Shown: one piece after another, positions 8,633 to 57,024 of the stretch
Numbering within the stretch: the first letter of the stretch is position 1
Layout of the letters: each line of letters begins with the position of its first letter
Assembly: GCA_039881145.1 (NCBI GenBank)
Contig: JAYKKI010000014.1
Span: 2,382,001 to 2,446,000, forward strand
Source: Druceiella hillmani
Lineage: Eukaryota; Arthropoda; Insecta; Lepidoptera; Hepialidae
Length of the DNA stretch: 64,000 nucleotides
Direction of reading: 5' to 3'
Made by a program: the position numbers and the translations under genes
Notes under the pieces: model-generated
The model's database searches: none
What the model saw: the letters and a program-made list of their open reading frames with translations, nothing else
What the model was told of the DNA's origin: nothing

Positions 8633-8884
8633 TTGAATATATTTGGCGTTAATTTTGTAGAATTTCATTATTCACAATTAAATGAAACTACGTGATGTAG
8701 TATTATTTCTACTTTCTTTAAGTTCTTTACCACGACCTAGGTTACGTTGTATTACAACATCTTCAGGTTACAAAGATTTTTGCTAATAGCCCACCTGAAG
8801 ATGTTGTAATACAACGAAACCTAGGTCGTGGTAAAGAACTTAAAGAAAGTAGAAATAATACTACATCACGTAGTTTCATTTAAT
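8633..8884 (-). mobile_element. Palindromic hammerhead retroposon, copy A
   Basis: A long near-perfect inverted repeat (arms from about 8677 to 8884, centre near 8780) carries a ~45 bp unpaired tail at its left end, so in element orientation (palindrome first, tail last) it lies on the minus strand. A 12 bp direct repeat, tctgattactta, flanks it exactly (8621-8632 and 8885-8896) and is read as a target-site duplication. The right arm carries a complete plus-strand hammerhead core. The left arm's minus-strand version has GUAA in place of GAAA and a disrupted helix I. No protein is encoded, so the element would depend on enzymes supplied in trans; a Penelope-like source is inferred from the ribozyme class. 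Confidence 0.8.
8791..8831 (+). ncRNA. Type I hammerhead ribozyme, copy A right arm
   Basis: All invariant core positions are present in order: CUGAAGA (8795-8801), GAAA (8816-8819), U16.1 (8826) and H17=C (8827). Helix II is GUUGU/ACAAC (8803-8807 and 8811-8815) with an AAU loop. Helix III is the self-complementary ACCUAGGU: two pairs with a CUAG loop as a monomer, or an 8 bp duplex as a dimer. Helix I pairs CCAC (8791-8794) with GUGG (8828-8831), so predicted cleavage follows C8827. One extra U (8802) lies between A9 and G10.1; an extra nucleotide at this site is known from the CChMVd plus-strand hammerhead. Activity is inferred, not shown. Confidence 0.82.
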
Positions 8885-8899
8885 TCTGATTACTTAATT

Positions 8900-11440
8900 A
8901 TACTTAATTACTCTTTTACCCAAAACCTATAAAACGCGAACATTAAGTGAGTTCCACTCTTTGGATGAAATATAATCGTTAGAAAAGGAATTATAATAAT
9001 CACTGACAAATAATACAAATAAGTTTGTATTTATATTTATTACTTTATTATTACTACAAAAACTATAAGTTTGAGAATCTTAGAACTCACTTTTGGTCTT
9101 ATTACCTTATCACACTCGACGCTTTAATTATACTGTAATGAAAATGTACTATACTTCCATTAATTATATGGATAGTTTTTCTAATCATATTGTTCTATTA
9201 ATCACAGTTTTTAATTCTTCAGGATATTTCAGAAAATGCGATATATCATGTTATAACTTTCAAATGTTATATATGGTAATATTTATTCTTTAAAAACATT
9301 GTTGTCAATACTTACACAAATTGACCGATAGATGACGTTACCATAACGTTATATGAAACTGAAACGTTGTGGAATTAATATGAGACACTTTATCAATACA
9401 CAAGAAGATCAATTTGTTAATTTAATAGTGGCATATAGACATAACTTATACACGTGACAGTTAATTATATTGTATTTGAAGACGACTTTTCAAAATCGTT
9501 TTTAGACAGGTTAAATAGGCAGAAACCGAAAGGAGTTTAATTAGAAACATAATAGCATTTACAAAAATGATAAATTTAACTTTACAACTAAAACTTTTTC
9601 AATAGTAAAAGAAATTGTTTTTTTGCTATACAGCTACAATTTTCAACCACAAACTCCAGACAGACTTTATTTTCCACTTAACATTAAAAATAAACGTAAT
9701 TCAATATAAGAAAATTAACACAAAATATACTTTTGATTTATGCAGGTAGATTACTTGCACTAAATACTTGATATTATCCAGTGCTTACAGTTAATGTGAG
9801 TTAAGTGCCGTAAAGAATTATGGACATATACGTAGCTTACCCGCTTCATACAAAACCCAGTTTATATTCTCTCCTCATAAAACTGACTCATAAATTATCC
9901 GCTGCTAAAATATTTTTCGAGAAAATAAATCTATTTGAGTAAGAGCAACGAGGTCTAAAAAAAGTCCTTGTTCTATTCTTCCTATTTTATTTTCACATTA
10001 TCTGCTTTCTACCCATCTGACAGCTTTTAATTTATTGTATAATATACAGAAAGGATCTGGATATATTGTCTGCTCGAAAAAGTTAACATATAACTACTAT
10101 ACTGCAGATACAAGTTTAAATTTATAAGTTTTAGATTAAAATACAAAAAGATTGAAGATATAACTAATAAACTACCTAGATCAACATAGAATACTTTTAA
10201 CATCTCCACCACATTTTAGTCCTTAAAAGTAAATTGAATACTAAGCGTAGAAGATCTGGCAACCAAAACATAAAATATATCTTTGATTGTCATAGTTAAA
10301 TTATTTGAAAGGATGTATTTTTTTTGCTTTAAAATGTATAACATACACTGACAATTTTTTGAAATTTTTGTGACTAGGCCAATTTTAAAACAAAGTTGCA
10401 CAACAAGTATTGTAAAACGAAATCATTTAAAACTTCTCCAAATCGAAAAAAATGTCATATCATAAAATTTTATACAGGCGTTGAATACGTAAACAATAGG
10501 TTGTATTAAACGATTGTATACTTCTTCAACAGATTTGCACCGTAATAACTTACTAGAAAAACTGTCAAAATAAATAAACACCCTATTTGGATGGACGCAT
10601 TGTGGGTGTGAAACAGAACCATTTACGAATAAATAACAATTGAAATTTTCCTTTATTTAAAACGTTCACGCGAAAAGCCAATAATAATTACAAGATCTGT
10701 TTTACATATGGCTTTTCTTTTATACGCCTTCCTCATTTTCATTTTTCTTCCCGCTTTCACGTGCTCGGCAAAGTGATAAATGTAGATAAGGCTCTTCCCC
10801 GAAAAGCCGAAATAAAATTGCAATATCAATAATCAATTGGAACATTTCTGGCAAGGTTTCAACTCTATTATGGTTACAATATAAGCAATGTATATTCAAA
10901 TTGATAGCAAGGAGCAACGTTCCTCTTGCAAGCATTCATTGCATAGACTTTTCTGTTTGCATTTTTCTATTTCAGCCGTGCGGCGTTTGCATAAGGGATG
11001 AAGTCCATTCAATACCGAGGTTATTAACATTCTTTGTCTATTGGGACGGTGAAACTTTTTGTATTTGAGCAGCGAGTAGAAGAGATTTAAATATTTTTTA
11101 TGAATATTTGACGAAGAATTTTAACTTGGATTGATGTGCAGTCGGTACGCATTTCATTGAATTTTTATTAAGAGGAATTTACAGAACACTTTTATTAATA
11201 TTAATAAAGAATCTTAACTAGAGCTATAGAAGTGGATTTAGCCTTTGAGGCAGAAGAAAGGAGAAACAGAAGTTAGATTTAATGAATACTATTTCAGATA
11301 AATCTGTCGTTTGTTTTTGGCTGCAGAAATATATAAAATTAATGTTATGTTGTCTGAACAGTCACGTATTGGAATGAAAATATTTTAATCTTAGATTTGT
11401 TTAAATGAGATAAATAACTTTGCCGTAAATATAAAATGTC
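8900..11440. other. AT-rich DNA, no gene seen
   Basis: Only short frames of low complexity occur on either strand. No protein family, RNA gene or satellite is recognisable. The frames at 9093-9293 and 10027-10401 are rich in I, L, F, Y and K, as expected from AT-biased noncoding DNA. Confidence 0.55.
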
Positions 11441-11466
11441 ATTATTGTTACTTATATGTATACAAA

Positions 11467-11509
11467 CTCACACACAAACACACACATACATACACACACA
11501 CACATACAT

Positions 11510-11583
<74 letters not shown>
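11467..11583. repeat. Compound (CA)n/(TA)n microsatellite
   Basis: A CA-rich tract with interspersed CATA units (11467-11520) runs directly into a pure (TA)n tract (11521-11574). The overlapping short frames on both strands here are artefacts of the repeat. Confidence 0.97.
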
Positions 11584-11584
<1 letters not shown>

Positions 11585-12150
11585 GATCGAGGAGTCGGTA
11601 TGGGTATACCCGAACCCGACATATCCAGGCAGACCACCTAAGCCTGGCCTATATATATGTACATATATATTTATAAAAAAGCGTTACTTGGAAATATAAG
11701 AATTTTTTTCCGGGTTTCTTAAAAAAATAGAAAATAATATTAATCTAAAACCTTTTTTTTTATTACGGCTTTTGTTACGAAGAAATAACCTATTTATTAA
11801 AAATGCCATATTTTTGGTTTTCAATATTTTTTCATATTTACAATTATGACTATCTTTATAAATAAAAACTTCCTTAAAAAACTCTAAATGAAAGACCGAA
11901 TTATCACTATAAAAGATTTTCCATTTGAGAAAATAACATCCGTATCGCTCACTACTCAAGGCCCAATAAGATTTTAGATGTGTCGCGTCGTATATTATTT
12001 TATTGATGACCTACATCACTCGGTTTGCTTAAACTGTAGAACCGTTAAAATTGTCGATATCCTTTAAATAGTGTATCGTGGGAATGGAAAAAGATACGAA
12101 ACACTTTTATTGATTATAAGAGTCTGACCTTGTTTATACCATATAATAAT

Positions 12151-12154
<4 letters not shown>

Positions 12155-12193
<39 letters not shown>
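12155..12193. repeat. (TA)n microsatellite
   Basis: Uninterrupted TA dinucleotide repeat of about 19 units. It is followed by gcatacagaatgtccgtaaa, which resembles in style the outer end of the TA-flanked MITE at 49956, but no partner end was found. Confidence 0.95.
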
Positions 12194-12194
<1 letters not shown>

Positions 12195-12196
<2 letters not shown>

Positions 12197-15100
12197 TACA
12201 GAATGTCCGTAAATGAGCATTTTCAGCGGAATACAAAATTGCGAGCCTTTAGTGAGGTTATCATAAATTTGAAGCACAATCACCTCTCTATGTAACTGAA
12301 TCTATTGGTTCGTAAAATTATTTTCTTATTTTTAGCTTAAAATTTTTCCCAAATAAAATTAGAATTGAAAGATAGTGTGAAAGTATTGATAGACTGATAC
12401 TGAATAGAAGAGATAACATTTTTAAAATGCTGAGTGTGTCTCTGTACTATATTTTTACGTAAAATATCTAATCAACACAAATTGAAATTCTTCTGAAAGT
12501 TTCTTTATCGCTGTTTGTTGAATAAAGAAATATATTTTTATATTTTTCTTTCGGAGTCTATTTCTTTCAAACATAGTCAAGTTTTTTTTTAGAAATAGAC
12601 GTTTATTCATTAACATTTCTTTTCTACAACTATTGTAGTGTTTTCATGGTGAAACCCAATAAATAAATGTGTTTTTTAAATAGGGAGCGATTAGTAAATG
12701 AAAGTTGTAGTTTGACGTAGAAGTTTTTTTGTCGATTTAAGACGTTTGTTACTCAAGAACTATTCCAATAATTTCAATTAAAATTTCTAGGGACCATAAC
12801 TTAGGACCTGATAACAAACCTCTTAATATATACGGAAATTACCCAATATCAAATATATTATGAAGTTATTCATTATTATATTAAAGTTCGCTAAACATTA
12901 ATTTTCTTATTTACGCGTGTACGCTGTGTTCTAAATAATACAATCGGTTTCACAAACAAATTTAAACCCAATCCAAAGCTTTCCAATCACAATCAAAACG
13001 AATAAATCGTGTACGAATATTAATTAAATTTCTAAATCTCTGCTTAAAACGCAGTACACAATATCGCTCGCAATACATCACCGACGTTGAACACCAGATA
13101 TGAACACAAAACACAGCGCTCGAAACTCAATATCGAACACATACTCGCATATAACGAACAACGATACATCGTTCATTGTATAACGGTCTGGAAGTTGTAG
13201 CGGAAAACGATGCGGCGAGGAGCTCGCATCGATATTACGATGTTAATGAAGTTTTTGCTACAATTAATTCAACATCGCAGCGATGCAATGGCTGCTTGGA
13301 TTATATTTAACTTTCGTAGCTACTAACGCTCACTAGATTGCGTCTCTTTAGCATTAGTGTTAAGTTAGGTTAAGCGACGTTATTATTAATGAGAGTTTAA
13401 TTACTTTCTTGATTCGTTGTGTATTTTTATTTAAGTGTTTCCGTTTGTTGATTTATGTTGTAAAGCAGTGGTAGCGGGAAAAGAAAAACCGTTGGATAAA
13501 ATTTGTCACGGAACATAGACGAATGTAGACATACAGTTTATATGGCACAGATTAAATAAAGAGTTTTTACTATGAACATTTTTGTCACTTTTATCGACTT
13601 TAAAAGAAAGGAATACTCTTCATTTACATTTGGGAACACCTCTATATTCGTTCATTTTTTTCGAATACTATTTGAATTACAAAGATTATATTTGGCGCTG
13701 TTGTAGATAATGATAACTAAATATGTATATTATTTACCAAGAGCTGAATTTTCACTTTGATGAGTTAAAAAGAGATGAAAAAAATTGCCATATATAAAAT
13801 GAAAACTATTTGAAATTTGTGTTGAAAAGCGTATCAATTGTTTTATTTCCCGGTGTTTTCCCCATAACGTTTCCTAAAATTTCTGTCTAACCTTAAGATC
13901 TCGAAAACTATCAATAAATAACTTAAAAATTTGGAAATGTTGATAATGAGTTTAGGCAGTGCCCAAAATTTATTAGTTTTGGATTGCCAAAGATAGTTTT
14001 TTGTTAAAAATAATTTAATTATTTTAATACGAATTACAAACTAAATATTAAAAAACAATAAAAAAGTCGTGATTTTCTTTTTGTCATATTTTCATTACTT
14101 ATCGAATTATTATAGTGTTAACATAACATGTTTTATAGGAACGCTTTAGGTCCAATGTTTATGCGCTCCTAGGACGATACCAATAAGAACCTCATGTATG
14201 CTTTGATGTTTGTGTGTATAAACATGAAGGTACAGAAAACTAATTGCACAAGTTCATTTTATTTTTTTTTACTTTCTAAATTGTTACTTTTTATTTTATG
14301 GGAGAACAGACATCGATCTTGAAAGCGTCACATGTGTGGAAAGTAAAGCGATGACTGTGGTGGTAACGCGTTAGACTAATGTCTCCGCGTCAGTAATTAA
14401 ACGTATCAATGGCTATGTATAATAACATCAAAAGTTCACTGTTTTCCTCATTTACTTCATTATATTTTTACAGATTTTTTGCGCTTATAATATATTCTTA
14501 TTAATATTATAAAAGCGAAATATTGGATGGATGCTCCTTTATAATTCCTTAATTTATAAGCTGATCGATATCAAATTTGGCTTGTGAATACATTCTAACT
14601 TGGACCAATTATTTGACTACTATTTTTTCCAAAATGAGAAATACTTCCTGACCGATAGCATCTATTTTTTACTATATTTACTAGATTTTTACTTAATCAT
14701 GTAGAAATTTAAAAAAGATATAGTGATAACCTCAGCTGACAGATTAACTCCAGCAACTTAAGCAAAAATCTAAAGGCTAAAGTTAGGGTTATAAATGGAA
14801 AAGTTTAAATGTACGCATTGATGTTTGTTACTCTGTAATTCATTTCGAAGGTATCTTTCTATCTCATAAGTTAAGTAGTCCCTAAGAGTTAGTATCTATT
14901 ATATATATATATTTTATGATATTCATGATTTTACATTGTTTGTACGGAAAATTACGAAATTTGAATTGAATCTGTCAAAATCTAGGCATGGATTCCGTGG
15001 AATGGTAGACAGTATTTTCTTCCTTATGTAACTCGATCACCACATTACTACCGAACTGAAAATTGCTACGTATGCTAAATTACTGTGGTCTTTACGCATG

Positions 15101-15800
15101 AAGTTGAGTGGGAGTTATTTTACTCATAAAATGGGTCCAGCAGTGTAAAATAAACCATAATCAAGTGTATAACAAAAAAAACTATATATTCCGGAATACG
15201 TATTGGGTATGTTTTTACGTACTTGTTACAGAGTTGTTAGGGATTAAATCATTTAAATAAAATTTTACATGAATGAAAATATTTCTGGAAAATTGTTATT
15301 TATAGATTAAATTTGTAAACATAATTGGTAAAATTTCGACCATAGTAATAATGATTAATATGCCTAGTTCGATCTCATTATATAGATTATTTCAAATGAA
15401 TAATCATCTTTATATTGTACAAACATTCATTCATTGCTCATTTAAACTTCAGAATATTTCCAGAAAGATAGATTAGATCAAATAGTGATATGACGTTTCC
15501 TGGCTTGCAGCTGTTAGTAAACGCAACCTGAACTAAATTGGTTATAAGCCCTTCTTTTCATGTAATAAAGATCTTAATTTTATGAACAAATTTCTTACTT
15601 CGTTTTCTTGAAATTATTTGCGGTTTAAAATATATGGATATTATTTATAGATGTAAAATAGATGTTTTTTTATAAAAAGTAATAAATTCTCATTAACAAG
15701 TTTCAGAAGCCCGTGTCCCGTGTACAAACAATGTCTATTTTATCTTCCATCTAAAATAATTACGTAAAAAGTTGAAAAAAGTTTACATATTGAGTTGAAA
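12195..15800. other. AT-rich DNA with one CpG-rich patch
   Basis: No gene is recognised. The stretch 13095-13290 is richer in CpG and contains atcgat-type short palindromes (for example gcatcgatattacgatg), unlike its surroundings. Around 14340-14400 a short block (gtggtaacgcgttagactaa) recalls a tRNA A box but lacks a convincing B box at the right spacing, so no RNA gene is called. Confidence 0.5.
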
Positions 15801-15805
15801 ATGAT

Positions 15806-15952
15806 TATCCGTGTGTAATACTTCTTTGCACGATTTAAAATGCACGTAACGCCATCTATTAATATCCATATCCACACATAGTGTGGATATGGATATTAAT
15901 AGATGGCGTTACGTGCATTTTAAATCGTGCAAAGAAGTATTACACACGGATA
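15806..15952. repeat. 147 bp near-perfect palindrome
   Basis: The two 72 bp arms (15806-15877 and 15881-15952) are exact reverse complements by eye, with a three-base loop centred on 15879. No tail, target duplication or protein accompanies it, and I found no second copy of the arm sequence in the window. Transcribed RNA would form a 72 bp perfect hairpin. It could be a foldback MITE, a recent snap-back duplication or an assembly artefact. The open frame at 15881-16066 begins inside the right arm and is not regarded as a gene. Confidence 0.9.
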
Positions 15953-23500: not shown

Positions 23501-23817
23501 TCAATGGGAATGAATAGAGTGATTTATTGTTTGTTTTTAATGCGTCCAGCGACGGCCGATCGTGTGTTTGATAAATTATTGGACAGTGTTTGCGCGAGTT
23601 GTGTTTTAACTTCTCATCGCTTTATTTATTAGTCACAAATAGGTATTGCGGTGTTTAAGTTGACTTACTTGTTTTTTTGCGCTGTCAGTTCTGTAATCGA
23701 TTGGTTGTTTATCAAATGCAGGTAAAAATGTTGATTGAATTTCGAGCGATTTCTATTCTACTTTTTAATGACTACAAATCCGTTTCCATAGAATCTGTCA
23801 AAATACTTTTAAAGATA

Positions 23818-24055
23818 TGAAACTACGTGATGTAGTATTATTTCTACTTTCTTTAAGTTCTTTACTAGGACCTAGGTTTCGTTATATTACAATATCTTCG
23901 GGTGAGTTATTAGCAAAGATTGCTAATCTTTTATAATACAACGAAACCTAGGTGGTGGTAAATAACTTAAAGAAAGTGAAAATAATACTACATCACGTAG
24001 TTTCATTTAATTGTTAATAATGAATTTCTATAAAATTAACGCCAAATGTATTCAA
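23818..24055 (+). mobile_element. Palindromic hammerhead retroposon, copy B (decayed)
   Basis: Same family as copy A, in the opposite orientation: the palindrome starts at atgaaactacgtgatg and the ~45 bp tail (taaaattaacgccaaatgta) ends at about 24055. The short repeat acttttaaa occurs at 23805-23813 and 24055-24063 and may be a shortened target duplication. Both ribozymes are broken: the right arm has lost the CUGAAGA segment and reads GUG at the cleavage triplet, and the left arm's minus-strand core reads CCGAAGA. Confidence 0.78.
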
Positions 24056-28402: not shown

Positions 28403-29480
28403 AAATCGATATTAAACGCAAAAGACCTCGTATGATTCGCCTTTCTACTGTTTAGTTTAGAATTATAACAGTCATTTATGTTACTACAATATTAGGCAAA
28501 AATTATATCAGAACATTAATAACCACATTTATAAAAATTTAGCGTAGCGAAAAACTTCGGTATCCTATAAATTTTGAACTATTTGTTTCATAAAAGATTT
28601 ACAACACCAAACTGTATGATATTGAATGATAGACTTTGTTTACTACTTTTGTTCTTCTTCTTTTATTTGTGTGTTATATCGCAAAAAATATTTTTGGAAA
28701 ATTTTAAAATATATTTTCAAAAAAACTAATGGTACGAAAAAATGTTGTACGTAAGTGTTGTAGAGAATTCAATTCCCTGTTACAAAGATTTATATTTTTT
28801 ATCGTAAACCACAAATTATATGAGATATCATGCAATTTGAGTCTTTGAAAATGGCGGATTTAGCAAATTTTCCACTTTTTGCCATTTTCCGAAAATGTTT
28901 CATTATATTTTTGATCTACCGTCAATATTATTAGATACCTTAACTATAAAACATATTTCTTGATGGAATATAAGCTTTTTTACGTTTAAATTTAGGATAA
29001 TATTTTTTTGTCCACAAATTGGTGTTTCTCATTTTGGAAACATTATAATTATTTTATGCATTACTGATGAAATAAAACTAACATTGTTTATTTCTCAATC
29101 ATAATTACAGTTAAAAATTGCATTGTCCATAAAGAAACGCTAAACTGTAAAATCGACTTTTCTTCTAGTGAAATTAAATTTACATTGTTCATTCATTATT
29201 CAAGGCCCGATAAAACCACCGCTTGGTTTACATGCACGCAGGATGTTAAACCCTTTCATTGACGTTAAAATATTGTATATCGGAAATGAGATTAGATACG
29301 AAGAAAATCATGAATAATAATCGTCTTAGCGACCCATAAAAATGCACCAATTTGACAACCTATATAGATCTATATTACCTGCATTAATTTTTCTTTTATA
29401 AGATAAATTAATTATTTAAATCTGATTTATGGTCAAAGCACATATGACAGCAATTTCTAATTAATATGTGTTGATTAAAC
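28403..29480 (+). repeat. Left arm of large inverted repeat
   Basis: Partner of 31792-32851 in reverse complement. The arm contains a phrase set (ttgatctaccgtcaatatta, atttcttgatggaatataag) found again in the right arm with a few changes. The inner limit is taken where ttgattaaac stops matching. No coding capacity is recognised. Confidence 0.85.
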
Positions 29481-29643: not shown

Positions 29644-31248
29644 GGCCTGCACCCTCTTCAACTTGTCGTCAATGTCTCTGAAGCGTCCCGCCAGAAGTCA
29701 AATGTCATCCGCGAAGTCTAGGTCCTCCAATCTGTCTGTCATTCCCCACTGGATTCCTTGTCTTCTGCCATTTATGATTTTCCGCATCACCCTGTCAAGG
29801 ACAAGCAGGAATAGTGTTGGGGAAAGAATGCACCCCTGTCTTACGCCTGTATTGTCGCTGATGGGACTGCGTCAGGGTTCCCTCGTGCAAGACTTGACAC
29901 TGGTAGTCCGTGTACATCTCCTTGATGATGTTGAGTATTTTCATGGGATGCCATACTCTGCCAGGGTGTTCCACATGACTGTTCTGTTGACGGAGTCAAA
30001 TACCTTCTCGAAGTCAATGAAGGTGAGGTACAGGGTGTTCTGCCATTCCGAGCCTTGTTCTAGGATGATCCTCAAGGTGTTTATGAGATCCACGCAGCTC
30101 CTGTGTTTTCGGAAGCCCGCCTGCTCTTTTCTGAGTCGCTGTTTCCTTGATGCGCTCCAATATGACGCGGGAGAGAATTTTGCTAGGTGCTGAGAGGAGA
30201 GTAATGCTCCGCCAGTTGTTACAATCGGCAATGTCACCTTTCTTGGGCAGCTTGACTATGATTCCCCTTTTCCACTCAGTAGGTAGCTTCTCTTCGCTCC
30301 AAATTTTCTCTAACAGTGGTTTAAGAAGTTTGGCTGTTGTCCCACCGTCGGCCTTAAGTATTTGTGGGGTGATGCCGTCAATGCCTGGTGCCTTGCCGGA
30401 TTTTATCTCCTTTAGTGCTTCCACAATCTCTTCCTGAGACGGTGGGTGCACAGATATGTCTGGGTCGCTGTCCTCTCCGTCACTTAAGTGCACTGTTGTA
30501 TCCGAACCTCGGTTAAGAACTTCGGTGAAGTGTTCCTCCCATCTGCTGAGTTGATTTTCCGTCGAGGTAAGCAACGTTCCGTCCTTGTTTCTACTTTTTG
30601 AGTTTCGGAAGCCTTTCCTTGCTAGTGCTTTTGTGATACCATAGAGTTCTTTCGCATCCCCTTTTTTAGCTGCGTCTTCTACTTTCTGCCCAAGGTCTTC
30701 TATCCCCGGTTAAGCAAGCTCTTCAGTCCCTCCTCACGCTCCGTTTCACCTTCCTGTCGGCATCAGCGTACTGTGCCTAGGCAGCCGCCTTCTGCTGTCG
30801 AGTCCTACTGTTGTTCATAAGACTCTTGGCGTCCTTTCTCTTTCCAATATCTGACCAGGTTCCTTCTGATATCTAGTCCTTCTTTTTAGGGTCCTTGTAC
30901 CCCAGCACTTCTTCATTGGTTGCTATGTAGACATATTTTGTCCTTGTCCAAGAGTTTTCCACTGTATCGATCTCTTCGGACTTTAAGGCTTGGAATCGGT
31001 TCTTTAGTTCCACTTGAAACTGCTGGCGGATGTTTTCGTCCTTTAGTTTCGCCACGTCAAACTTTTTTTTCCTGTTCTGGAACTTTCTGTGGAACTGGGC
31101 GACAATTTTCATTTTGAAGTCAGCTATTACCAGGTGGTGATTGCTGCTAATGTCTGCTCCGCGTTTGTTCCGCACATTTCTCACTGATCTCCGAAATTTT
31201 CGACTGAATGCCATGTGGTCGATTTAGTATTCAGTCGAAAATTTTTAT
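29642..31248 (-). pseudogene. Non-LTR retrotransposon fragment (endonuclease end to RT), dead
   Basis: Read on the minus strand. At about 31245-31100 it encodes the end of an AP-like endonuclease: an IDH motif and a SSNHHLV motif where active families have SDHH. A charged linker follows to about 30580, then reverse transcriptase with KSGKAPGIDGI (about 30400), KLPKKGDIADCNNWRSITLL (about 30240), EQAGFRKHRSC, FIDFEKVFDSVNR (motif A, about 30000), TGVRQGCILSPTLF (about 29850) and the catalytic LDFADD (about 29725). It is broken by an in-frame stop before IDH, stops after KKD (about 30872) and in the linker, frameshifts near 30140-30170 and 29860, and a TGA right after FADDI. Both element ends are missing: nothing follows the RT core before the (TA)n tract. 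An active copy would nick DNA and copy its RNA at the nick. Clade is not assigned; the motif style matches a LINE family common in arthropods and other invertebrates. Confidence 0.88.
31194..31243. repeat. Short inverted repeat at LINE 5' break
   Basis: The phrase aaattttcgactgaat (right side of the LINE coding end) reappears inverted as attcagtcgaaaattt about 18 bp away. Part of it is coding on the minus strand (AFSRKF on one side, STE on the other), so the symmetry may be partly chance, but it sits exactly at the truncation point next to a (TA)n tract. Confidence 0.65.
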
Positions 31249-31791: not shown

Positions 31792-32851
31792 TGTTTAATC
31801 AATACATATTAATTAGAAATTGCTGTCATTTGCATTTTGACCATAGTTCAGATTTAAATAATTAATTTATTTTATAACAAAAAAATTAATGCAGGTAATA
31901 TAGATCTATATAGGTTGTCAAATTGGTGCATCTTTTATGGGTCGCTAAGAACAAAATAAAACGATTATTCATGATTTTCTTCGTATCTAATCTCATTTCC
32001 GATATATAATATTTTAACGTCAATGAAAGGGTTTATCATTCTGCGTGCATGTAAACCAAGCGGTCGTTTTATCGGGCCTTGAATAATGAATGAACAATGT
32101 AAATTTAATTTCACTAGAAGAAAACTCCATTTTACAGTTTAGCGTTTCTTTATGGACAATGCAATTTTTAACTGTAATTATGATTGAGGAATAAACAATG
32201 TCAGTTTTAATTCATCAGTAATGCATAAATTAATTATAATGTTTCCGAAATGAGAAACACCAATTTGTGGACTAAAAAAAATGTTTCTAAATTTAAACGT
32301 AAAAAAGCTTATATTCCAACAAGAAATATGTTTTATAGTTAAGGTATCTAATAATATTGACGGTAGATCAAAAATATAATGAAACATTTTCGGAAAATGG
32401 CAAGAGAGGGAAAATTTGCTAAATCCGCCATTTTAAAAGACTCAAATTGCATGATATTTCATATAATTTGTGGTTTACGATAAAAAATATAATCTTCATA
32501 AGAGGGAATTGAATTCTCTACGACACTTACATTTTTTCATACAATTAGTTTTTTTGAAAATATATTTTAAAATATTACAAAAATATTTTTTGCGATATAA
32601 CACACAAACAAAAGTAGTAAACAAAGTGTGTCCTTAAATATCATACAAGTTTGGTGTTATTAATCTTTTCACGAAACAAATAGTTCTAAATTTATAGGAT
32701 CCCAAGGTTTTTCGCTGCGCTAAATTTTTATAATTGTGGCTATTAATGTTCTGACATAATTTTTGCCTAATATTGTAGTGACATAAATTACTGTTATAAT
32801 TGTAAACTAAATAGTAGAAAGGCGAATTATTTTTGCATTTAATATCGATTT
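31792..32851 (-). repeat. Right arm of large inverted repeat
   Basis: Reverse complement of 28403-29480. It keeps an open frame of 69 codons on the minus strand (32178-32387) where the left arm has a stop in the same frame. No protein family is recognisable, so this is treated as chance. Confidence 0.85.
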
Positions 32852-33056: not shown

Positions 33057-33862
33057 TGTACGAGATACAATACAATTTGTATTTTTCAAAATGGTGAATT
33101 TAGAAATGAAGAGCTTTTTAAATCTACTTCATGCCGTTTTCCAAAAATAATCCTGTTCTTGTCCACAAGCGAAAAACCACAAAAAGTGTGCACTATTTAC
33201 AAATTCCTGTCACTATTCCTGGTGCTATTTCATATTTCTCCAGACATAAATTACGTTTTCAGATAACTATTTATCAAAGAAACAACTCGTACATAAAATC
33301 GTAAATCTCTGCCACACAGACGAAACCACAAACATAAACTAATGTATAAACGATCTAGTCATTTATATCTGTTTTCCTTAAAACGATCTAATCTAGTTTA
33401 GCAATGTTTTTAACACCGATTAATATAAACTGGTAATTCGAATTTTTCATTATCTGTTTGAAATAGTTAATCCTACATGCATATTGCTAGTAGTGTTTTC
33501 ACCTAAACACACCAATGAGCTGCTGAACCAGAAACAAATCTATAAATAACTGTTATGGACGCTGAATCACCCAGGAATGTTTCTCAGCTGATTTTATTCA
33601 ATCTAGTTTGGATATGCTAGTTTTAAATTACGACCGACCAAACAATTTATTATGATAAATATTTGATGTATGAATTAAATAATAAGGACAGGTACTCACT
33701 TTCAAACGTTCCGTTTGTATTTACTTCAAGATAACACAATGTTTTCGGCAATGCGGTTAATTTAAATCTAATTCACAATTATTAAAATAAAAAGTGTTCC
33801 TCGACCACGGAACGTGATAATAGTCACTCTTACAATCAGTGATTCAATAAAAGAAAGAATAC

Positions 33863-34040
33863 TGAATATATTTGGCATTAATTTTGTAGAAATTCATAAT
33901 TAAATTTATTATTATTTCTACTTTACGTGTAATGCGCTAATACAACGTGGGATGTTGTAATATAATGAAACCTAGATCATGGTAAAGGATTTAAATAAAC
34001 TAGAAATAATACTACACCACTTAGTTTCATTTAATTGTGG
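33863..34040 (-). mobile_element. Palindromic hammerhead retroposon, copy C (decayed)
   Basis: The tail (tgaatatatttggcattaat) is at the left and the palindrome arm end (ttagtttcatttaattgtgg) at the right, giving minus orientation. The left arm is mostly deleted and the centre is rearranged. The right arm keeps helix II and GAAA-CCUAG-like segments but has lost CUGAAGA, so no ribozyme is predicted. An aagaata phrase lies on both sides (about 33855 and 34046) but does not abut the right end, so a target duplication is doubtful. Confidence 0.68.
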
Positions 34041-34989
34041 AAATTAAGAATATTAAACGATTTTAATGAATTGATGTCAAAACGTCCAAACTACACGAAG
34101 CACATAATGTGACATACCAAAACAGGCATTACATTTTCGCCATTTTCTCCATAGTTTAAAAAACAAAAAGCTTTCTAATTCTATTAAATAACCTCGCAAA
34201 TTTTACATTTGTTTTTTTCCAACTTTTAAATAATTGATAAATTAAATAAGAGCTTTTAATTACCTACTCAATTTAATCAGATCAGTACTGCAAAATTAGT
34301 AAAATTAATGTAAATTTCTACCTTTATCAATTAACACGATTTAGACATTTAAAACTAATTCCGGACCTTTCAGTTTAAATACCCTAAAAATAAATATCTT
34401 TGTATGCAATGTTCTCTTGTGGAATTCATTAAATACGTCTCTTTAGTACGGGGCATGTAGCCAAACGATCGTTTGAAAATCTATAAATTCAACTAAAATA
34501 TTTTACTTTGTCTTCAAGGTTTTACATCAGCAATAGAAATATCAGCTTCACCAGGAATCGTACTGAAACTCGTGAGAATTGCATTGTAACCTAGCATGCC
34601 TCCACCATGATATACTTGATTTAATTTATTACCATTCAAATAGATGACTGTATGATCATCTCCATTAATTTTCTCCAGTCATTTTGAATAGGCTCCATAA
34701 ATTTCGTATTCCGTCCGGAACATTAAAATCTAAATTATTATTATAAAACACTTTATGCGATCGTAAGCTATAAACGCAGAAACATAAATTGATCCAAATC
34801 ATTTGGCTTGCACCCAAATGTCATAAACTGCATTCACATTAATCAAACTCTATATTTGCACTTAACACTCAATATACAATAAGAAAATTCTAATATGTGT
34901 TAAACTTTGCGTTTCAAATCAAGTGTTTTCTATATACTATTGCATTTTATTTATATTTATACGATAACATTAAATTCGACAATGACTTT

Positions 34990-39360: not shown

Positions 39361-39511
39361 GCTGTAATATGGTGTAAAACAAGGGGTTGAATATTCGCCG
39401 GTGTACAGTGATTGTAGTTCCTTTTGTGCATTTGGTTTTTCATGTTATGTGCATGGGTTATGTGTTCGCCGATACGTTTATTCAAAATTACTAGATGTTG
39501 TTTTATTAAAT

Positions 39512-39822
39512 ATATTTGGCGTTAATTTTGTAGAAATTCATTATTCAAAATTAAATGAAGCTACGTGGTATAGTATTATCTCTACTTAAGTTAAATTCTT
39601 TACCACGACCAAGTTTTCGTTGTGTTACAAAATACTTTAATTTCTGAGTTTCCGTTGTACCAACGACAACGAACTCGAAGCTACTGAGTTCCCATTGTGC
39701 CAACTAGGTTTCGTTGTATTACAATAACACTTGTTGTGATACAACAAAACTTAGGTTGTGGTAGCGAATTTAAATAAAGTAGAAATAATACTACATCACG
39801 TAGATTCATTTAATTATGAGAA
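39512..39822 (-). mobile_element. Palindromic hammerhead retroposon, copy D (expanded loop)
   Basis: The tail (tatatttggcgttaattttg) is at the left, giving minus orientation. A 15 bp direct repeat with one mismatch flanks the copy: gttgttttattaaat at 39497-39511 and gttgttatattaaat at 39823-39837. The centre is enlarged by about 100 bp holding two rearranged pieces of arm sequence (around 39645-39725). Neither arm retains CUGAAGA with GAAA in register, so ribozyme activity is not expected. Confidence 0.78.
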
Positions 39823-41406: not shown

Positions 41407-41555
41407 GCCCACCTGAAGATGTCATACAACGAAACCTAGGTTGTGGTAAAGAATTTAAATAAAGTAGAGAAAATACTACACCACCTAGTTTCATTTAGTT
41501 GTGAAAAATTAAATTTTAATGAATTTCTACAAAATGAATGCGAAATATATTTAAT
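41407..41555 (+). mobile_element. Palindromic hammerhead retroposon, copy E (one arm)
   Basis: Only the right arm and the tail are present (tail about 41505-41555). The left arm is missing, and the sequence before it is unrelated apart from a small hairpin (gttgtcatacaac). This is what a 5'-truncated reverse transcript would leave. Orientation is plus. No target duplication was recognised, so later deletion of the left arm is an alternative. Confidence 0.72.
41409..41446 (+). ncRNA. Degenerate hammerhead, copy E
   Basis: CUGAAGA (41413-41419), GAAA (41431-41434), helix III ACCUAGGU and helix I CCAC/GUGG are intact, and the cleavage triplet is GUU (allowed, H17=U). Helix II has lost two bases and carries changes (UGUCAUACAAC), so it cannot form its normal five pairs. 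Weak or no activity is expected. Confidence 0.6.
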
Positions 41556-41940
41556 ATTTGTATAATATACTAAATAATTCTGACCTAAGATGTCTAGTTG
41601 AAAAGTACCTTGACAAATTTGAAAATGATTTAGAATTTGTTTGAAGGAACATATGCACAACGTAACAAAGTTTAATATTTTGTAAAGTAATGCTCCATAA
41701 TCGTGATCGTTATCTTAATTATACACATAACTTTGATCCACCAACCCAAAGCCATAAATTATCTGGAAGTTATCAATATGTCAAATTACGGTTTCACCTA
41801 AATAATTACTGTATATTTTTCAGCTTCAGTAAGTACCATTAATATTTTAATTATTTAAATAATCCATTTTGCCTGCCTTCCATTCTATGTCTTAAAGTAT
41901 TTTCGTATGCTTAATTTTTCATGTTTAATTTTTATTAAAT

Positions 41941-47815: not shown

Positions 47816-47832
47816 TAATTTAATTATATCAC

Positions 47833-48093
47833 AATTAAATGAAACTATGTGATGTAGTATTATTTCTACTATCTTTAATTTCTTTACCACGACCTAGGTT
47901 TCGTTGTATTACAACAACTTCAGGTGGAATAAGAAGAGCTGAAGATGTTGTAAGCCCACCTGAAGATGTTGTAATACAACGAAACCTAGGTCGTAAAGAA
48001 ATTAAAGAAAGTAGAAATAATACTACATCACGTAGTTTTATTTAATTGTGAATAATGAATTTCTACAAAATTAACGCCAAATATATTCAATAA
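47833..48093 (+). mobile_element. Palindromic hammerhead retroposon, copy F
   Basis: Full-length, plus orientation: left arm from 47833, right arm to about 48045, then the tail ending attcaataa at 48093. It is flanked by a perfect 13 bp direct repeat, ttaattatatcac (47820-47832 and 48094-48106), read as a target-site duplication. The left arm's minus-strand core has CUGAAGU (A9 changed). The right-arm core is complete but has a three-base deletion in helix I. An extra partial arm word (gctgaagatgttgtaa) in the centre suggests slippage. The open frame at 47839-48045 is a product of the inverted arms. Confidence 0.85.
47956..47996 (+). ncRNA. Hammerhead ribozyme with damaged helix I, copy F
   Basis: CUGAAGA (47960-47966), helix II GUUGU/ACAAC, GAAA (47981-47984), the helix III palindrome and the GUC triplet (cleavage after C47992) are all present. 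Downstream of the cleavage site the sequence is GUAAAG instead of GUGGUAAAG, so helix I shrinks to about two pairs. Confidence 0.68.
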
Positions 48094-50523: not shown

Positions 50524-50633
50524 TAAACACGTATTTCACTGACCATAGTTCGAGCGCTTTGATAACCAAACACATTAAAATGATTTTTGATAGCAGATAT
50601 ATCTGACATTCCGAATTTAGTAGTTATGTAACG

Positions 50634-50707
50634 AATACGTATTATGAATTTAATCGCTTGCTTATAAGTCATCCTATAAGCAAGCGATTAAATTCATAAT
50701 ACGTATT
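50634..50707. repeat. 33 bp perfect inverted repeat, 8 bp loop
   Basis: Arms 50634-50666 and 50675-50707 are exact reverse complements around agtcatcc. The phrase aacttataagtcatcct-like recurs once at about 50731-50747, so part of the centre was duplicated. Confidence 0.92.
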
Positions 50708-51366
50708 ATATAAATCTTATATATAAATCTTTAACTTATAAGTCATCCTGTTAAGTTATATGCACCTTATATTTCAGATTGCAATAATCTCATTAATAAT
50801 ACAAATATTTAAAAACATTACCATTGATTAACATTTCATCACTTCACAAAAACATGAGCAACGTCACACAAAACATTGTACGGTTAAATATGAACGTTTC
50901 CATCTCCATTTACACCAAACTGGCCGTAGTAACGATGAAAAATTCAAGTCAAGCTTTTGTTGAAAGTTCTGCAGAAAGGAGGTATCTGGATTAAACGTAC
51001 GTAGCTTTTTACAATGGCCGATTTCGAAGCTTATAAATACAGCGGCAAGTGTTGAAGGAAGAAGGATAAGGCTAAGTTAATGGAGTGGAAATTAGGACAT
51101 TAGGGAATATAATATTCTACACCCGTATTTGAATAAAATAGAAAATATTAAAGGGTAGGATCGGTACAAGAAAATCATAAGGGATCGTTATGAGTAACTC
51201 GAATAAACCAGGGGAGGGAAAATTTTCAATCAAAACAACAAAAAGTTGTACGCGATCATTTTTAAAGTATTGAATATATTTGGCGTTATTTTGTAGAAAT
51301 TCATTATTCACAATTAAATGAGACTACGTGATGTAGTATTATTTCTACTTTCTTTAATTTCTTTAA

Positions 51367-51407
51367 CCACGACCTAGGTTTCGTTGTATTACAACATCTT
51401 CAGGTGG
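51367..51407 (-). ncRNA. Type I hammerhead ribozyme, copy G minus strand
   Basis: On the minus strand the order is CCAC (51407-51404), CUGAAGA (51403-51397), U, GUUGU-AAU-ACAAC (51395-51383), GAAA (51382-51379), CCUAGG, UC, then GUGG (51370-51367). All core positions match the consensus and helices I and II are fully paired. Predicted cleavage follows the C complementary to 51371. The extra U after A9 is present as in the other copies. Confidence 0.84.
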
Positions 51408-51426
51408 GATATTCTTTGCCAATATC

Positions 51427-51467
51427 CCACCTGAAGATGTTGTAATATAACGAAACCTAGGTCGTGG
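51427..51467 (+). ncRNA. Type I hammerhead ribozyme, copy G plus strand
   Basis: CCAC (51427-51430), CUGAAGA (51431-51437), helix II GUUGU/AUAAC with one G-U pair (51439-51451), GAAA (51452-51455), helix III ACCUAGGU, GUC with cleavage after C51463, and GUGG (51464-51467). Core complete. Confidence 0.84.
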
Positions 51468-51539
51468 TTAAAGAAATTAAAGAAAGTAGAAATAATACTA
51501 CATCACGTAGTCTCATTTAATTGTGGATTTTTAAAGTAC

Positions 51540-52820
51540 TTGAAATCGGAAATGATATGCCAAATGTACGTAAATAAGTTGGAAAAATCTCTATAGGGTT
51601 TTCTTAAGAAAATTTCCAGTAAAATGTTAGACGAAATTTATAATAAAACTGAAAAGCATAGCTTTTCAGTTCAGTAAAACTGAAAAGCTGCAAGTGGAAA
51701 TAGAATATATAAAAATGAATGTTTAATTGTTATCAATTAGATAAGTAGTGAAAACTGATCCAGCATTGTAATATATATTCTCATAAGTGAATGCTACACT
51801 CAGTATTATAACATATTTCCTTATGCAAAATATTAGATAAAACTCAAACCCCATTTTATAATTGTAATTTATATTTTTAATTACGTTGTCTTAAATATAT
51901 TCTTCTACACGACATATATTCTTCTACACGATATCATATTAAAGTCAGACCACTACCATAACGTATTTTCTTATGCATGCCTTGATGGATTCGGTAAAGG
52001 GGTTGCAATACCTGGAAAATGGTAGTACCCCACCGATGAGCCAAAACGAGCAGAGTATTGCAGTACATTTTCTCGAAGCGAATCGCCGTATTGTTGAAAC
52101 CTTATATCTTTGGTCTGGTTAACATCTGAGAACCCAAATTTCCATAATAGAATTAGCATCACCGCGGTCTGTATTGACTTGACGAGGTAAAAGCGGAAAG
52201 TCCGCTAGTGAGCAAACTGAAAGGCAACCTACAAAAACTATTGACATCCTATGAACAATATTTCATGTAAAAATGTTGCCATTCTTCATTATCCTTTAGC
52301 TCTTAAAACGTTATTACATCTCATGTTGAGCCAAGCCCTAAATAAATGTGTATCTTGGTAAAATATTGTAGAACTTAGCCGAGTCGCAGAACTATAAAAA
52401 TACTTAACTTTAGTATCATTGCACGTACTAAAATTATCAGTATCATAAGCATAACAATCTCCTATAATCTATAGAGTAGGCTATGAAGAAACGAACTGCA
52501 GACGTTAATGTTAACCCTTTGACCAAACCCTGTGTTTGATCGAGATGTAGATTTACTTAGGGTTTGATTCTACGTGAAATCTCAAAACTTTTTATGAGTT
52601 AAAGGATAGTGAGCCTTGGTGACATCTTTACATGAAATGTCTTTGATGGGATAAATTTATCAAGTAATATTGTATTCAGTTATCAAGTAATATTTTATTA
52701 AAGTAAATATCGTAATAAATAATAAATACTGGTAAAATCTATTGGTCTTAAAATACGAATGCCAGTCTGAAGATGACTTTCACTCATTGTCACACGTGGT
52801 GTTTTGGATTCATTACAAAT
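51540..52820. other. AT-rich DNA, no gene seen
   Basis: An 11 bp perfect stem with a three-base loop (aactgaaaagc, ata, gcttttcagtt) lies at about 51654-51678, and the word aaaactgaaaagc is repeated shortly after. Nothing else is recognised. Confidence 0.5.
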
Positions 52821-52824
52821 CATA

Positions 52825-52895
52825 CGGCTTTTGACTACGCGGCACACCGTGGGGACCCGGGTTCGGTTCCCGGCCGCTCATCGAGCGGGGCTAGA
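52825..52895 (+). repeat. tRNA-like SINE head, copy 2
   Basis: Second copy of the block at 3390-3535, with a better B-box-like phrase (gggttcggttccc) and the gcggcacaccg and ccggccgctc words. The 3' parts of the two copies differ (here gctagactggttcttgactg), suggesting two subfamilies or a shared tRNA ancestor. Confidence 0.5.
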
Positions 52896-53170
52896 CTGGT
52901 TCTTGACTGTAAGGAATTGCTCTCGTAGCAATAAGTATGTATCAATTTGATACATTAAAGTACATTCAATTAATTATTTAAACTTTATGTTTAAATTAGA
53001 AAATGTTGTAAAATATCTAATATATTTATTTGGTATTAGTTCTATGCAGACCTGCGTTTTCTTAGTCTATGTGGAAATAAATGTATTACTAGCCTAGAGC
53101 AGCCACATAGCGATGTAATATATATTATATTTATCCTATTGCTATCCCTATAATTATCAAAACAACAATG

Positions 53171-53173
53171 TTA

Positions 53174-53237
<64 letters not shown>

Positions 53238-53238
53238 C

Positions 53239-53293
<55 letters not shown>
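53171..53293. repeat. (TA)n/(TACA)n microsatellite
   Basis: Two long TA tracts are joined by a tttatacatatatatacat segment. Confidence 0.96.
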
Positions 53294-53296
<3 letters not shown>

Positions 53297-53645
53297 AAGC
53301 TGTAGAACTAGACTGGTGTATATTAAATGTATATATTTAGGGCAACATAACGAAAGTAATGGAACACAAAAATATTGTTTTTGATATTTTCATCTATTTG
53401 TGTCTATTAATTCGTTTATGCATCACCCTAGAATAGCTTAAGAAATTTCGATGAAATTTTGAAATGAGTTCCATAAAGTTTGGGATAACATATAAGCTAT
53501 ATTTCATTGGAAAAGTTTGATGAAATGTTTACTGATAAGTATTCTGTTAAATTTGTGGTATATTTATATGTATATTTATAGTTATTCTGTTAAATTTGAG
53601 GTAATATATAAGCTACATTTCATATCATCGCAATAGACCAACTAA

Positions 53646-54209
53646 AATAAAGATGAAGTAATTTTATTAATTACATTTTTAAAGGTCCACGTAATAAAGA
53701 TGAAGTCATTTTATTAATTACATTTTTAAAGGTACACGTAAATGAAATTACATTTTTAAAGGTCCACGTAATAAAGATGAAGTAATTTTATTAATTACAT
53801 TTTTAAAGGTCCACGTAAATGAAATTACATTTTTAAAGGTCCACGTAATAAAGATGAAGTAATTTTATTAATTACATTTTTAAAGGTCCACGTAAATGAA
53901 ATTACATTTTTAAAGGTCCACGTAATAAAGATGAAGTAATTTTATTAATTACATTTTTAAAGGTCCACGTAAATGAAATTACATTTTTAAAGGTACACGT
54001 AATAAAGATGAAGTAATTTTATTAATTACATTTTTAAAGGTCTACGTAAATGAAATTACATTTTTAAAGGTCCACGTAATAAAGATGAAGTAATTTTATT
54101 AATTACATTTTTAAAGGTCCACGTAAATGAAATTACATTTTTAAAGGTCCACGTAATAAAGATGAAGTAATTTTATTAATTACATTTTTAAAGGTCCACA
54201 TAAATGAAA
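53646..54209. repeat. 77 bp minisatellite, about seven units
   Basis: Each 77 bp unit consists of a 47 bp part (aataaagatgaagtaatttt onward) and a 30 bp part (aaatgaaattacatttttaa onward), both ending aaaggtccacgt. The aataaag landmark occurs at 53646, then 53693, 53770, 53847, 53924, 54001, 54078 and 54155; the first unit lacks the 30 bp part. Differences between units are few (tccacgt versus tacacgt or tctacgt), so expansion was recent. Confidence 0.97.
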
Positions 54210-54219
54210 TTGCGGGTAG

Positions 54220-55730
54220 AACTTTTTTTTATATAAATTAAAATTTTACATTACTGGAAAAACGTCTTTGTCTAATATAATTTAAAAAAAATCATGTTAA
54301 ATCATACACTTATCTTTTGTTAAATTTTCCGCAAAAATTCTTCATAAAAGGCAAAACTGTAAGCGTTAATAAGATATTATCAAAACATTACAATTCTTTT
54401 AAAACTAAATAGTATCAATGTACTAACGAAACTCGTAAAATCGTAACTTGCTATAATCCTCTTATGAAACGTCCAGCATATTCTATAAAATTATGACTTC
54501 TGCGCATACTACTATACGCGTCCTCTTACAAACTTTCGAATAGAAATTGCTAAAGCTACTTTTGCAAAACATGTCACTTGCTTCTTTATAATACACCAAT
54601 TTTTTACTCCCAGACTGACTTTTCTGAACTTCTGTGTTTAGCCAATTGTAAGTGAGAGTAAATAATGTTTTACCTTACCATGACAGCCAAAAGACCAAAC
54701 ATTTTTTTAAAATTATAATATAAAATATAGTAAATAAATTATAATTCACTTTTTTCAGTCCTTGATTAAACTAATAACTGAAATATTATTTAAATTATCC
54801 TTTATGTGATAAAAGAACAAATAATATGTTGTGTCCAATCAAAAATAAAATGTGAAGAAAAGCGACATGTTTGGTAATAAGAAAAAGTGAGTTTTTTTGG
54901 TATCGACTACAAAAGCGTTGAAACCTAAATGAGGTGATGATGCCAAGTTCTATTAATGTTTCTTAAAATTAACAGAGAATCTTTACTGACATGAATAACA
55001 GTAACAATGGAATAGATTTGAAAGGCAAATTTATGAATGCTTTCATGATATATGCATTAAATAATTATGACATGTACCAAAATTTCTTTAAAATTAGCTG
55101 CCTAAACTTCCGTGTCTTCATTGACAATTTTTTCCTGTCAAGAGCGGGATAATAGTTCATAAAATATTAGAGTGCATAACTTCACGGTCTGCCACTTTTT
55201 TAATGCATTTTCTATTTAACGATAAAGTATGTTGAAACATTATTATCAAACACAAGGTTAGGAGTTTTCTAGTTTCTTTTTATTTCAATGTCTGATGACT
55301 TATCTTCGTGCCAAATTACAAACTTCTAAGTGAACTAAAAGTATCAAAATAAATTTGTTGGCTGGAATCGGTAGCTCTAGAAATGTTCATATTAGTAAAT
55401 TCTTACTCCATAAATATCTATACGAAACTCAATTGTACTACACGCGATCATAATTTGCAACATTTTGAATTATTCCCCATTTTCGGAACGACCAAATTTT
55501 AGCAAAAAAAAAAACAATTAATTTTTTGGAGTTAATTTATAATTTTCCAATTTAATTTTTTCGGAAAATGTAATTCAGATGAAGTTTTTACTTTTATCTT
55601 TTTGTTACACATATAGTTAGTACGAGTATACGTCTGTTCTATCAAGCTGGAAGCTTTGTTAGATATCACAGCGTATGTATTCACTCGACTATTTACTTGG
55701 AAAATCGCTCGGTGCAATATTGCAAATTAT
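54220..55730. other. AT-rich DNA, no gene seen
   Basis: No coding frame, RNA gene or repeat is recognised. Confidence 0.5.
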
Positions 55731-55739
55731 TGTAAAGCG

Positions 55740-56160
55740 GGAACTCCGATAGAGAATATACATCGGAATATTTGCCTTCGGCCATTGACTTTAATGTCAT
55801 TCGCATTTCATCCTGCCCACCGTTTATCTCTACCTACGGCGCGATGCGAGTGGATACGCGTTTAATGCAGCACTAAACAAAAGTTCGCACCGACACGAAT
55901 GCCGGTCGCAAATCGCCGCAGCAACGCTGGACCGCCGTCACATGCCCGCGCGATACCGCGTCAGTTTCCACACCGCTCGCATTGGAAATGTTTGTTTCGG
56001 CCGAATTATGCATTCGGCGATCGTGTGAGGCTAAATGTGTCCCATTTTACCGAGGTAAAGTTAATTAAACCAAGCGTTGATGCATGCGGTGCGAGGCTTT
56101 TTCGCGTCACGATACGGGCATCGACACCGGAACGTAGTTTTTGCGAGTGCTATCAGTAAA
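55740..56160. promoter_or_regulatory. CpG-rich island, candidate regulatory element
   Basis: About 420 bp of clearly CpG-rich DNA flanked by AT-rich sequence. It contains a 7 bp stem hairpin gccgaat/attcggc (56000-56018) and homeodomain-like taattaa. Two short plus-strand frames cross it without recognisable protein. It resembles the islands at 23060 and 34990 in composition but shares no long sequence with them, arguing against a repeat family. Confidence 0.33.
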
Positions 56161-56875
56161 CATTTGCGAATAGTGAATTATTTGTTTGTTTACTTTGTTG
56201 ATAACCATTTTTTGCGGCCATAATTAAAAAGATGCAAATGCAAATCTCATTTGATTTGTATAATAATGGTGTCTTTAGTAGTCGCAGCTAAACGTGAATG
56301 GTTGCAATAAGAGGTAATCTGAAGAGAGTACAAATGCGTATTATTTCTTTTGGTATATAAGTTAACTTTGTTGACAAATATTTTCTTGATATACTTAGAA
56401 TTATTTCTACGCAGAAACAATGTAAAACTGAAAATGTTTTAAATATGTATATTGAAGGTTAATCAACACTTCGTCGTATTAATCATAATCAGGTAAACGG
56501 GTCAATTAAATTATTAATTCTTGACTACTTTTATACAAGCATTAGCTAGCCAGAACTACATAACCTGTTACAAGTTGTACTTAACATCAAAAGAAGATAA
56601 TATTTAAAAAGAATTAATTACACTTCACATAATCATTTTGAAAATATGAGAAAGAAATACTTTTCACTTATCGACGTTAACTAGAATATGATTAGTAAGC
56701 TTAGGTTGAGCTATATTGCAAATATTTTACAAATTTATTATTAAATAAATTGTTATGATTTACTTATGGAAATACGCTTTAATTGTATGCGAAGCATTAT
56801 GTTAACGACATTTTTGGGAAACAGAAATAATGTATATACTTCTTTGCCATTATTCAATTAACGAATGATTCATAT

Positions 56876-57024
56876 TGAACATATTTGGCGTTAATTTTGT
56901 AGAAATTCATTATTCACAATTAAATAAAACTACGTAATGTAGTATTATTTCTACTTGCCTTAAGTTCTTTACCACGACCTACGTTTCGTTGTATTACATC
57001 TTCAAGTGGGCTAAGATTTTTGCT
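56876..57024 (-). mobile_element. Palindromic hammerhead retroposon, copy H (5'-truncated)
   Basis: Only the tail and the left arm are present (minus orientation); the copy ends in what would be the loop. It is nevertheless flanked by a perfect 12 bp direct repeat, aatgattcatat (56864-56875 and 57025-57036). A half-length insertion with its own target duplication cannot come from later deletion of a full copy. It is the expected product of incomplete reverse transcription. Confidence 0.85.
56972..57009 (-). ncRNA. Degenerate hammerhead, copy H
   Basis: On the minus strand helix I (CCAC/GUGG), GAAA and the GUC triplet remain. The first core base is changed (UUGAAGA in place of CUGAAGA), helix II is two bases shorter (UGUAAUACAAC), and helix III reads ACGUAGGU. 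Activity is not expected. Confidence 0.6.

Follow-up and report, generated by a model that had tools for sequence, protein, structure and literature searches.

Short palindromic repeats of Druceiella hillmani as likely head-to-head pairs of Penelope pseudo-LTRs with predicted hammerhead ribozymes

We analyzed a 64-kb stretch of the genome of Druceiella hillmani (contig JAYKKI010000014.1, positions 2382001-2446000; hereafter the window), the genome comprising 2.59 Gb in 181 contigs. An earlier note, made from the sequence of the window, had described eight copies of a palindromic retroposon with hammerhead ribozymes in its arms, and one short repeat family of ~250 bases indeed has members at all eight places (8633, 23818, 33863, 39512, 41407, 47833, 51270 and 56876). 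Our analysis suggests that these repeats are gene-less, head-to-head pairs of the pseudo-long terminal repeats (pseudo-LTRs) of Penelope elements, likely rebuilt whenever they insert, through two-ended target-primed reverse transcription, a reading to which we assign a probability of roughly 0.6.

The arms of the repeat are the ends of Penelope elements

A search of the same genome with PF01541 (GIY-YIG) gave two matches. One of them, L062, encodes a GIY-YIG endonuclease (E 2.5e-8). Its endonuclease frame lies between an inverted arm of the repeat on the upstream side (86%) and a tailed arm on the downstream side (90% over 150 bases). The body of L062, used as a DNA query, yielded 4225 first-look candidates, of which 40 were scored and 20 of those 40 followed in the 3' direction. 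Eighteen of the 20 followed ends finish in arm sequence; in 16 the alignment begins at arm position 1-3, with other Penelope 3' sequence in front of it (in most of them ..ctaagagttaat or a similar one), and 6 extend to the end of the tail. Since copies of the endonuclease gene end in the same arm, some of them with the tail, the short element consists of two head-to-head Penelope pseudo-LTRs without the gene. The comparison with Penelope pseudo-LTRs that the earlier note had recommended thus identifies the arms.

The partner is presumably a Penelope element, an assignment made from GIY-YIG together with such ends and from the general features of Penelope proteins. We read it in this way because both features match the accounts of Penelope elements given in excerpts of two papers (PMC3846280, PMC11167929). 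A reading frame of its own for reverse transcriptase and GIY-YIG endonuclease is absent from the gene-less short element of ~250 bp, which is therefore a derivative and not a complete Penelope element. Judged by its sequence features, namely the shared pseudo-LTR, the one-sided tail and short, variable target-site duplications, it is a derived, non-autonomous Penelope-like element.

At another locus, L063, the longer frame has three protein homologues carrying PF26215, one of them from the beetle Harmonia axyridis, and its own Pfam match to GIY-YIG lies just under the cut-off. The short palindrome at L063 might have been taken for the 5' terminus of a complete Penelope element, but a 12-bp target-site duplication of its own marks it as an independent insertion.

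An abundant element with two precise ends and a variable center

Two DNA searches of the genome returned 2166 and 2669 first-look candidates, of which 40 in each case were scored. Five elements were present in 4 of 20 10-kb stretches picked by round coordinates, which corresponds to ~25 per Mb; by extrapolation, with a wide error, the copy number would be in the tens of thousands. The window has 8 members in 64 kb, compared to these 5 in 200 kb elsewhere in the genome. The arm statistics cover 77 two-armed copies, made up of a first set of 42 and a second set of 35 that was selected by means of a copy whose arms are both intact. Window copies 33863, 39512, 41407 and 56876 and the double-tailed copy L053 were left out, and 4 of the 39 stretches of the second set were dropped as near-identical duplicates (98.6-100%).

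Counted outward from the center, an arm begins at position 1 with CTTTGCTAATA.., carries the hammerhead at 14-54 and finishes at the short end (~112) or at the tail end (153). The one-sided tail, put at ~45 bp in the earlier note, is about 42 bases long; it is present on one arm and absent from the other, the sole exception being the short copy L053, which is tailed at both ends and for which no target-site duplication was found. The arms are inverted relative to each other in all 77 aligned copies. The non-tail arm starts at position 1-3 in 41 of 43 copies (first set) and 34 of 35 (second set), and the tail arm, whose start is more variable, does so in 29 of 43 and 27 of 35. Both outer ends, one tailed and one tailless, are precise, and the center is variable between copies, with 16 distinct fillers among 35 copies, counting the empty one. 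Target-site duplications of 8-18 bp (12 bp in 21) accompany 39 of 44 copies, in keeping with the proposed retroposon nature of the family. In the same search, duplications of at least 8 bp were found in 38 of 43 true flank pairs, compared to 43 of 421 mismatched flank pairs.

The tail arms of L001, L002, L023 and others stop at position 16, just before helix I of the hammerhead, and are followed by varied filler. A reverse-transcription stop at this position is possible, as is an inherited deletion.

Alignments of the window members reveal five two-armed copies (8633, 23818, 39512, 47833 and 51270), which bear out the palindromic form described in the earlier note. From the alignments and the sequence, 41407 and 56876 are single-armed and 33863 has lost most of its tail arm. 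The individual features are as follows.

8621..8632 (left copy) and 8885-8896 (right copy), no strand: target-site duplication TCTGATTACTTA, same letters on either side
8633..8884, + strand: two-armed element, tail on left, tail-arm hammerhead broken (GAAA to GTAA)
8791..8831, + strand: complete hammerhead motif, predicted cut between 8827 and 8828
23817..24055, - strand: two-armed element, tail on right, hammerhead incomplete in both arms
33860..34051, + strand: deleted element, tail piece and one arm
39504..39819, + strand: two-armed element, rearranged 94-base center
41408..41556, - strand: single tailed arm with CTGANGA...GAAAC
47832..48093, - strand: two-armed element, tail on right, 23-base center filler, target-site duplication TTAATTATATCA; core intact in one arm, GTGG of helix I cut short
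51270..51526, + strand: two-armed element, tail on left, target-site duplication ATTTTTAAAGTA, one complete hammerhead per strand
51367..51407, - strand: complete hammerhead motif
51427..51467, + strand: complete hammerhead motif
56876..57024, + strand: single tailed arm, target-site duplication AATGATTCATAT (read by eye)

A hammerhead motif shared with the parent element

The consensus of the motif is CCAC-CUGAAGA-u-GUUGU-AAU-ACAAC-GAAA-CCUAGGUC-GUGG. In hammerhead position names, the core has one extra U after A9; such an extra base was reportedly seen by De la Pena and Flores in 2001 in a viroid hammerhead. The 8-base palindrome ACCUAGGU is expected to pair between two molecules. Dimer activity is reported for short-helix-III hammerheads in the available parts of two papers (PMC7229834, PMC7761336).

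The invariant core and helices I, II and III are found in type I order under a strict descriptor, which demands the core, at least 4 pairs in helix I, at least 4 in helix II, and A15.1-U16.1 plus one more pair in helix III. It matches three arms of two copies in the window, at 8795 (+), 51431 (+) and 51403 (-), and gave no match in 3.84 Mb of first-order-resampled window sequence or in 200 kb sampled elsewhere in the genome. A looser CTGANGA...GAAAC pattern occurs 5 times in the window compared to 0.35 expected. The type I motif of the earlier note is thereby upheld, but its extension to all eight copies and both arms is not: 51270 is the only window copy with a complete motif on each strand, the tail arm of 8633 being broken in GAAA. 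The hammerhead search that the note had suggested also included Rfam, with which no hammerhead was found in the whole window at the gathering score or at E<=10. On short stretches Hammerhead_HH9 scored 14.6 bits against a gathering score of 52, and at 51270 Hammerhead_1 scored 14.6 and 14.5 bits, one per strand, against 34. The single Penelope end tried (L064) gave no Rfam hammerhead.

Of the 77 copies, 59 have an intact core in the tail arm, 67 in the other arm and 53 in both; when helices I and II are included, the counts become 46, 60 and 38. These counts are biased upward, because the copies are the best matches to (intact) window copies. The 17 Penelope ends that cover the core have kept it in 8 cases, and 6 have the motif with helices I and II. 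Taken by descriptor and alignment, the hammerhead motif is real and inherited from the parent Penelope pseudo-LTR, with self-cleavage only predicted.

The motif may be dead baggage, carried over from the parent pseudo-LTR and without a role in the short element. This is compatible with two-ended copying, and we consider the odds to be even. Substitutions in the core (36/1841) and in the rest of the arm (201/11809) indicate that the core is not better conserved (p 0.44; Fisher values here are inflated by the relatedness of copies and serve as description only). Preferential conservation of the ribozyme in the non-tail arm was also considered and rejected, core and non-core being alike in the pooled data. 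The first 42 copies have 4/504 core substitutions in the non-tail arm compared to 19/504 in the tail arm (p 0.002, or 0.07 without site 40), and the second set of 35 has 9/420 and 4/419. In addition, copies with variant 40T multiplied despite a broken tail-arm core, a free single arm prefers another fold (-18.7 kcal/mol, against -11.7 for the hammerhead fold), and ribozyme mutants of the anole element still insert in vitro according to the available part of PMC11167929. Against dead baggage stands the retention of both cores in most copies, though the choice of copies favored those closest to intact window copies, and selection on the source cannot be read from dead copies.

RNA of the whole element folds into one hairpin of about -187 kcal/mol. 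The palindrome as one RNA would thus be locked, so only an RNA starting near the center could fold the hammerhead. Truncated arms beginning past position 20 have placed starts at 21-27, 61, 64 or 77, and in this small sample none at 51, the predicted cut site.

Two-ended copying and its alternatives

In the mechanism we propose, the copying would be carried out by a Penelope protein encoded in the same genome. The template RNA would begin at the inner end of the arm (position 1, CTTTGC). One nicked strand would prime its copying from the short start site and the other from the long (tail) site, after which the two cDNAs would be joined head to head. With a short template beginning at position 1, both arms would stop there and form a palindrome with a predicted minimal type I hammerhead in each arm. 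For the anole Penelope protein, PMC11167929 describes nicking and extension of both strands, with reverse transcription begun at two internal sites of the RNA, by which the tail is defined.

Two observations favor two-ended target-primed copying, namely unequal Penelope arms and variants present in both arms of the short element. Five of the 40 scored Penelope places have an opposite-strand piece alongside, two of them 98% alike and perhaps a single event. The four that were examined (L062, L084, L085 and L086) have head-to-head arms of unequal length: the direct arms run from the reference start, and the inverted arms cover reference positions 572-1052, 301-1074, 469-1069 and 614-824. Such unequal arms are the expected result of two independent 3'-started cDNAs with separate 5' stops. 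The two tails of L053 point the same way. In the 77 short copies, variant 98C is in both arms of 16 and in one arm of 4, with corresponding counts of 6 and 2 for 70T, 15 and 10 for 7C, and 17 and 6 for 62C. Variants 7C, 70T, 98C and T12 occur in none of the 16-17 Penelope ends covering them. Lineage variants that are absent from the sampled Penelope ends and mostly present in both arms imply that the short family evolves by itself and that one arm's sequence enters both.

Other observations weigh against this reading. Variant 40T is found in the tail arm only (7 vs 0 of the 77 copies) and 109C is nearly confined to the non-tail arm (11 vs 1); such arm-specific variants fit a palindrome inherited as a unit better, and each is present in one Penelope end too. 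Nearly all two-armed copies bear exactly one tail, which is not expected from independent ends alone, and some arms fall in different subfamilies. The partner is known here by its endonuclease part only, no reverse transcriptase domain having been identified.

The alternative that survives best is that the palindrome is inherited whole. Ordinary target-primed reverse transcription would start at the tail end of a single RNA that spans both arms, and the arms would stay alike through gene conversion between them. This would account for arm-specific 40T and 109C common to several copies, for the constant one-tail layout and for the tail retained by the single-armed window copies 41407 and 56876. 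However, it requires a separate arm-to-arm conversion for derived variants in both arms and an RNA whose 5' end coincides exactly with the outer end of the non-tail arm, the unequal-armed Penelope copies share the layout without palindromic inheritance, and the hairpin formed by the full RNA would be a hard template. We regard whole inheritance as rather unlikely and rank two-ended copying above it.

Tentatively, the palindrome may also spread by itself without an inherited center: RNA of one arm, read outward from the center, would be copied inward from both edges of the DNA break, so that every jump would remake the palindrome, equalize its arms and restore a hammerhead to each strand.

The element is small, gene-less, low in G+C and equipped with a type I hammerhead, as a metazoan retrozyme would be, and mobilization by Penelope proteins has been proposed for retrozymes in the available part of PMC7761336. 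In that case hammerheads would cut tandem RNAs, and the monomers would circularize and be copied into the genome as circles. But all 77 copies have inverted arms and no tandem direct repeats, the ends lie at Penelope-type start sites and not at the cut site, and the small sample of truncated arms described above likewise avoids that site, all of which makes a retrozyme quite improbable. Least probable of all is a foldback or MITE-like (miniature inverted-repeat transposable element) DNA transposon moved by a transposase and bearing a hammerhead by chance, since, despite the long inverted repeats and high copy number, the duplications vary and lack a fixed length, a tail on one end only means that the ends do not match, and a GIY-YIG retroelement has these arms as its ends.

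Other features of the window

An inverted repeat of 529 nt, 96% complementary, lies at 28790-29318 and 31964-32492 and contains a broken reverse-transcriptase-like frame at 30014-30709 (-), with an RVT_1 match (E 0.019) below the cut-off. A near-perfect 110-bp hairpin at 15824-15934 has many sub-threshold microRNA matches and is perhaps an unrelated foldback or MITE-like element. GC-rich repeats at 3367-3461 and 52795-52889, 80% identical, contain a tRNA-like GGTTCGATTCC-type stretch and are possibly a short interspersed nuclear element. Tandem arrays occupy 53592-54288 and 59101-60292, with units of 77 bp and about 187 bp, and a tRNA gene is found at 62363-62435 (Rfam, 43.4 bits), with anticodon AGC by eye and thus for alanine.

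Relation to known systems

Penelope elements of the rotifer Adineta vaga, in the part of PMC3846280 available, resemble the short element in their inverted head-to-head pseudo-LTRs, one-sided tail (about 31-bp there, with target-site duplications of 8-10 bp) and palindromic junctions. The pairs in the rotifer flank a gene body or captured DNA, and cargo between the pseudo-LTRs is moved in trans, whereas here the pair alone is the abundant element. The same account favors self-priming on an antisense template, and the word hammerhead is absent from the main text of PMC3846280. PAc, a Poseidon element of Anolis, is described in excerpts of PMC11167929 as a GIY-YIG Penelope with a minimal hammerhead that cuts 26 bp after the ATG at stem II; the cut predicted here lies 27 nt away when counting begins at the A of the corresponding ATG. 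In PAc the tail is defined by two internal start sites of reverse transcription, as we infer for the short element. PAc forms tandem full elements, whereas the element here is gene-less and its stem II ATG meets a stop after two codons.

Minimal Penelope hammerheads in type I order are said to have been described by Cervera and de la Pena in 2014 and Lunse et al. in 2017. Like ours, they have a very short helix III with a self-complementary loop, for which dimer activity was proposed. Reviews, in their available parts, locate minimal type I hammerheads in Penelope pseudo-LTRs (PMC7761336, PMC6155905) and describe the published sets as dispersed or tandem, whereas those here are head-to-head. 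Metazoan retrozymes, as excerpted in PMC7229834, are likewise small and gene-less with a type I hammerhead, but combine tandem repeats with circular RNA where we see inverted arms. Each of the three components, namely minimal type I hammerheads, the tail and a head-to-head placement of pseudo-LTRs, has been published for Penelope, so the fusion that the earlier note thought new is a known arrangement, familiar from the rotifer elements. What appears new, as far as we found no description of it, is a miniature, abundant, gene-less family built solely of head-to-head pseudo-LTRs. Our literature search, in the parts of the sources it reached, found no such family; Cervera 2014, Lunse 2017 and Craig 2021, outside its reach, could describe one.

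The origin of inverted, tailed Penelope insertions is debated, self-priming on antisense RNA and two-ended priming having both been suggested. The question becomes testable, both from sequence and with a construct of ~250 bases, in a short and abundant family whose two ends are marked, whose lineage variants can be followed from arm to arm and of which dozens of copies can be dated. The family would also account for one source of the long palindromes scattered through a genome.

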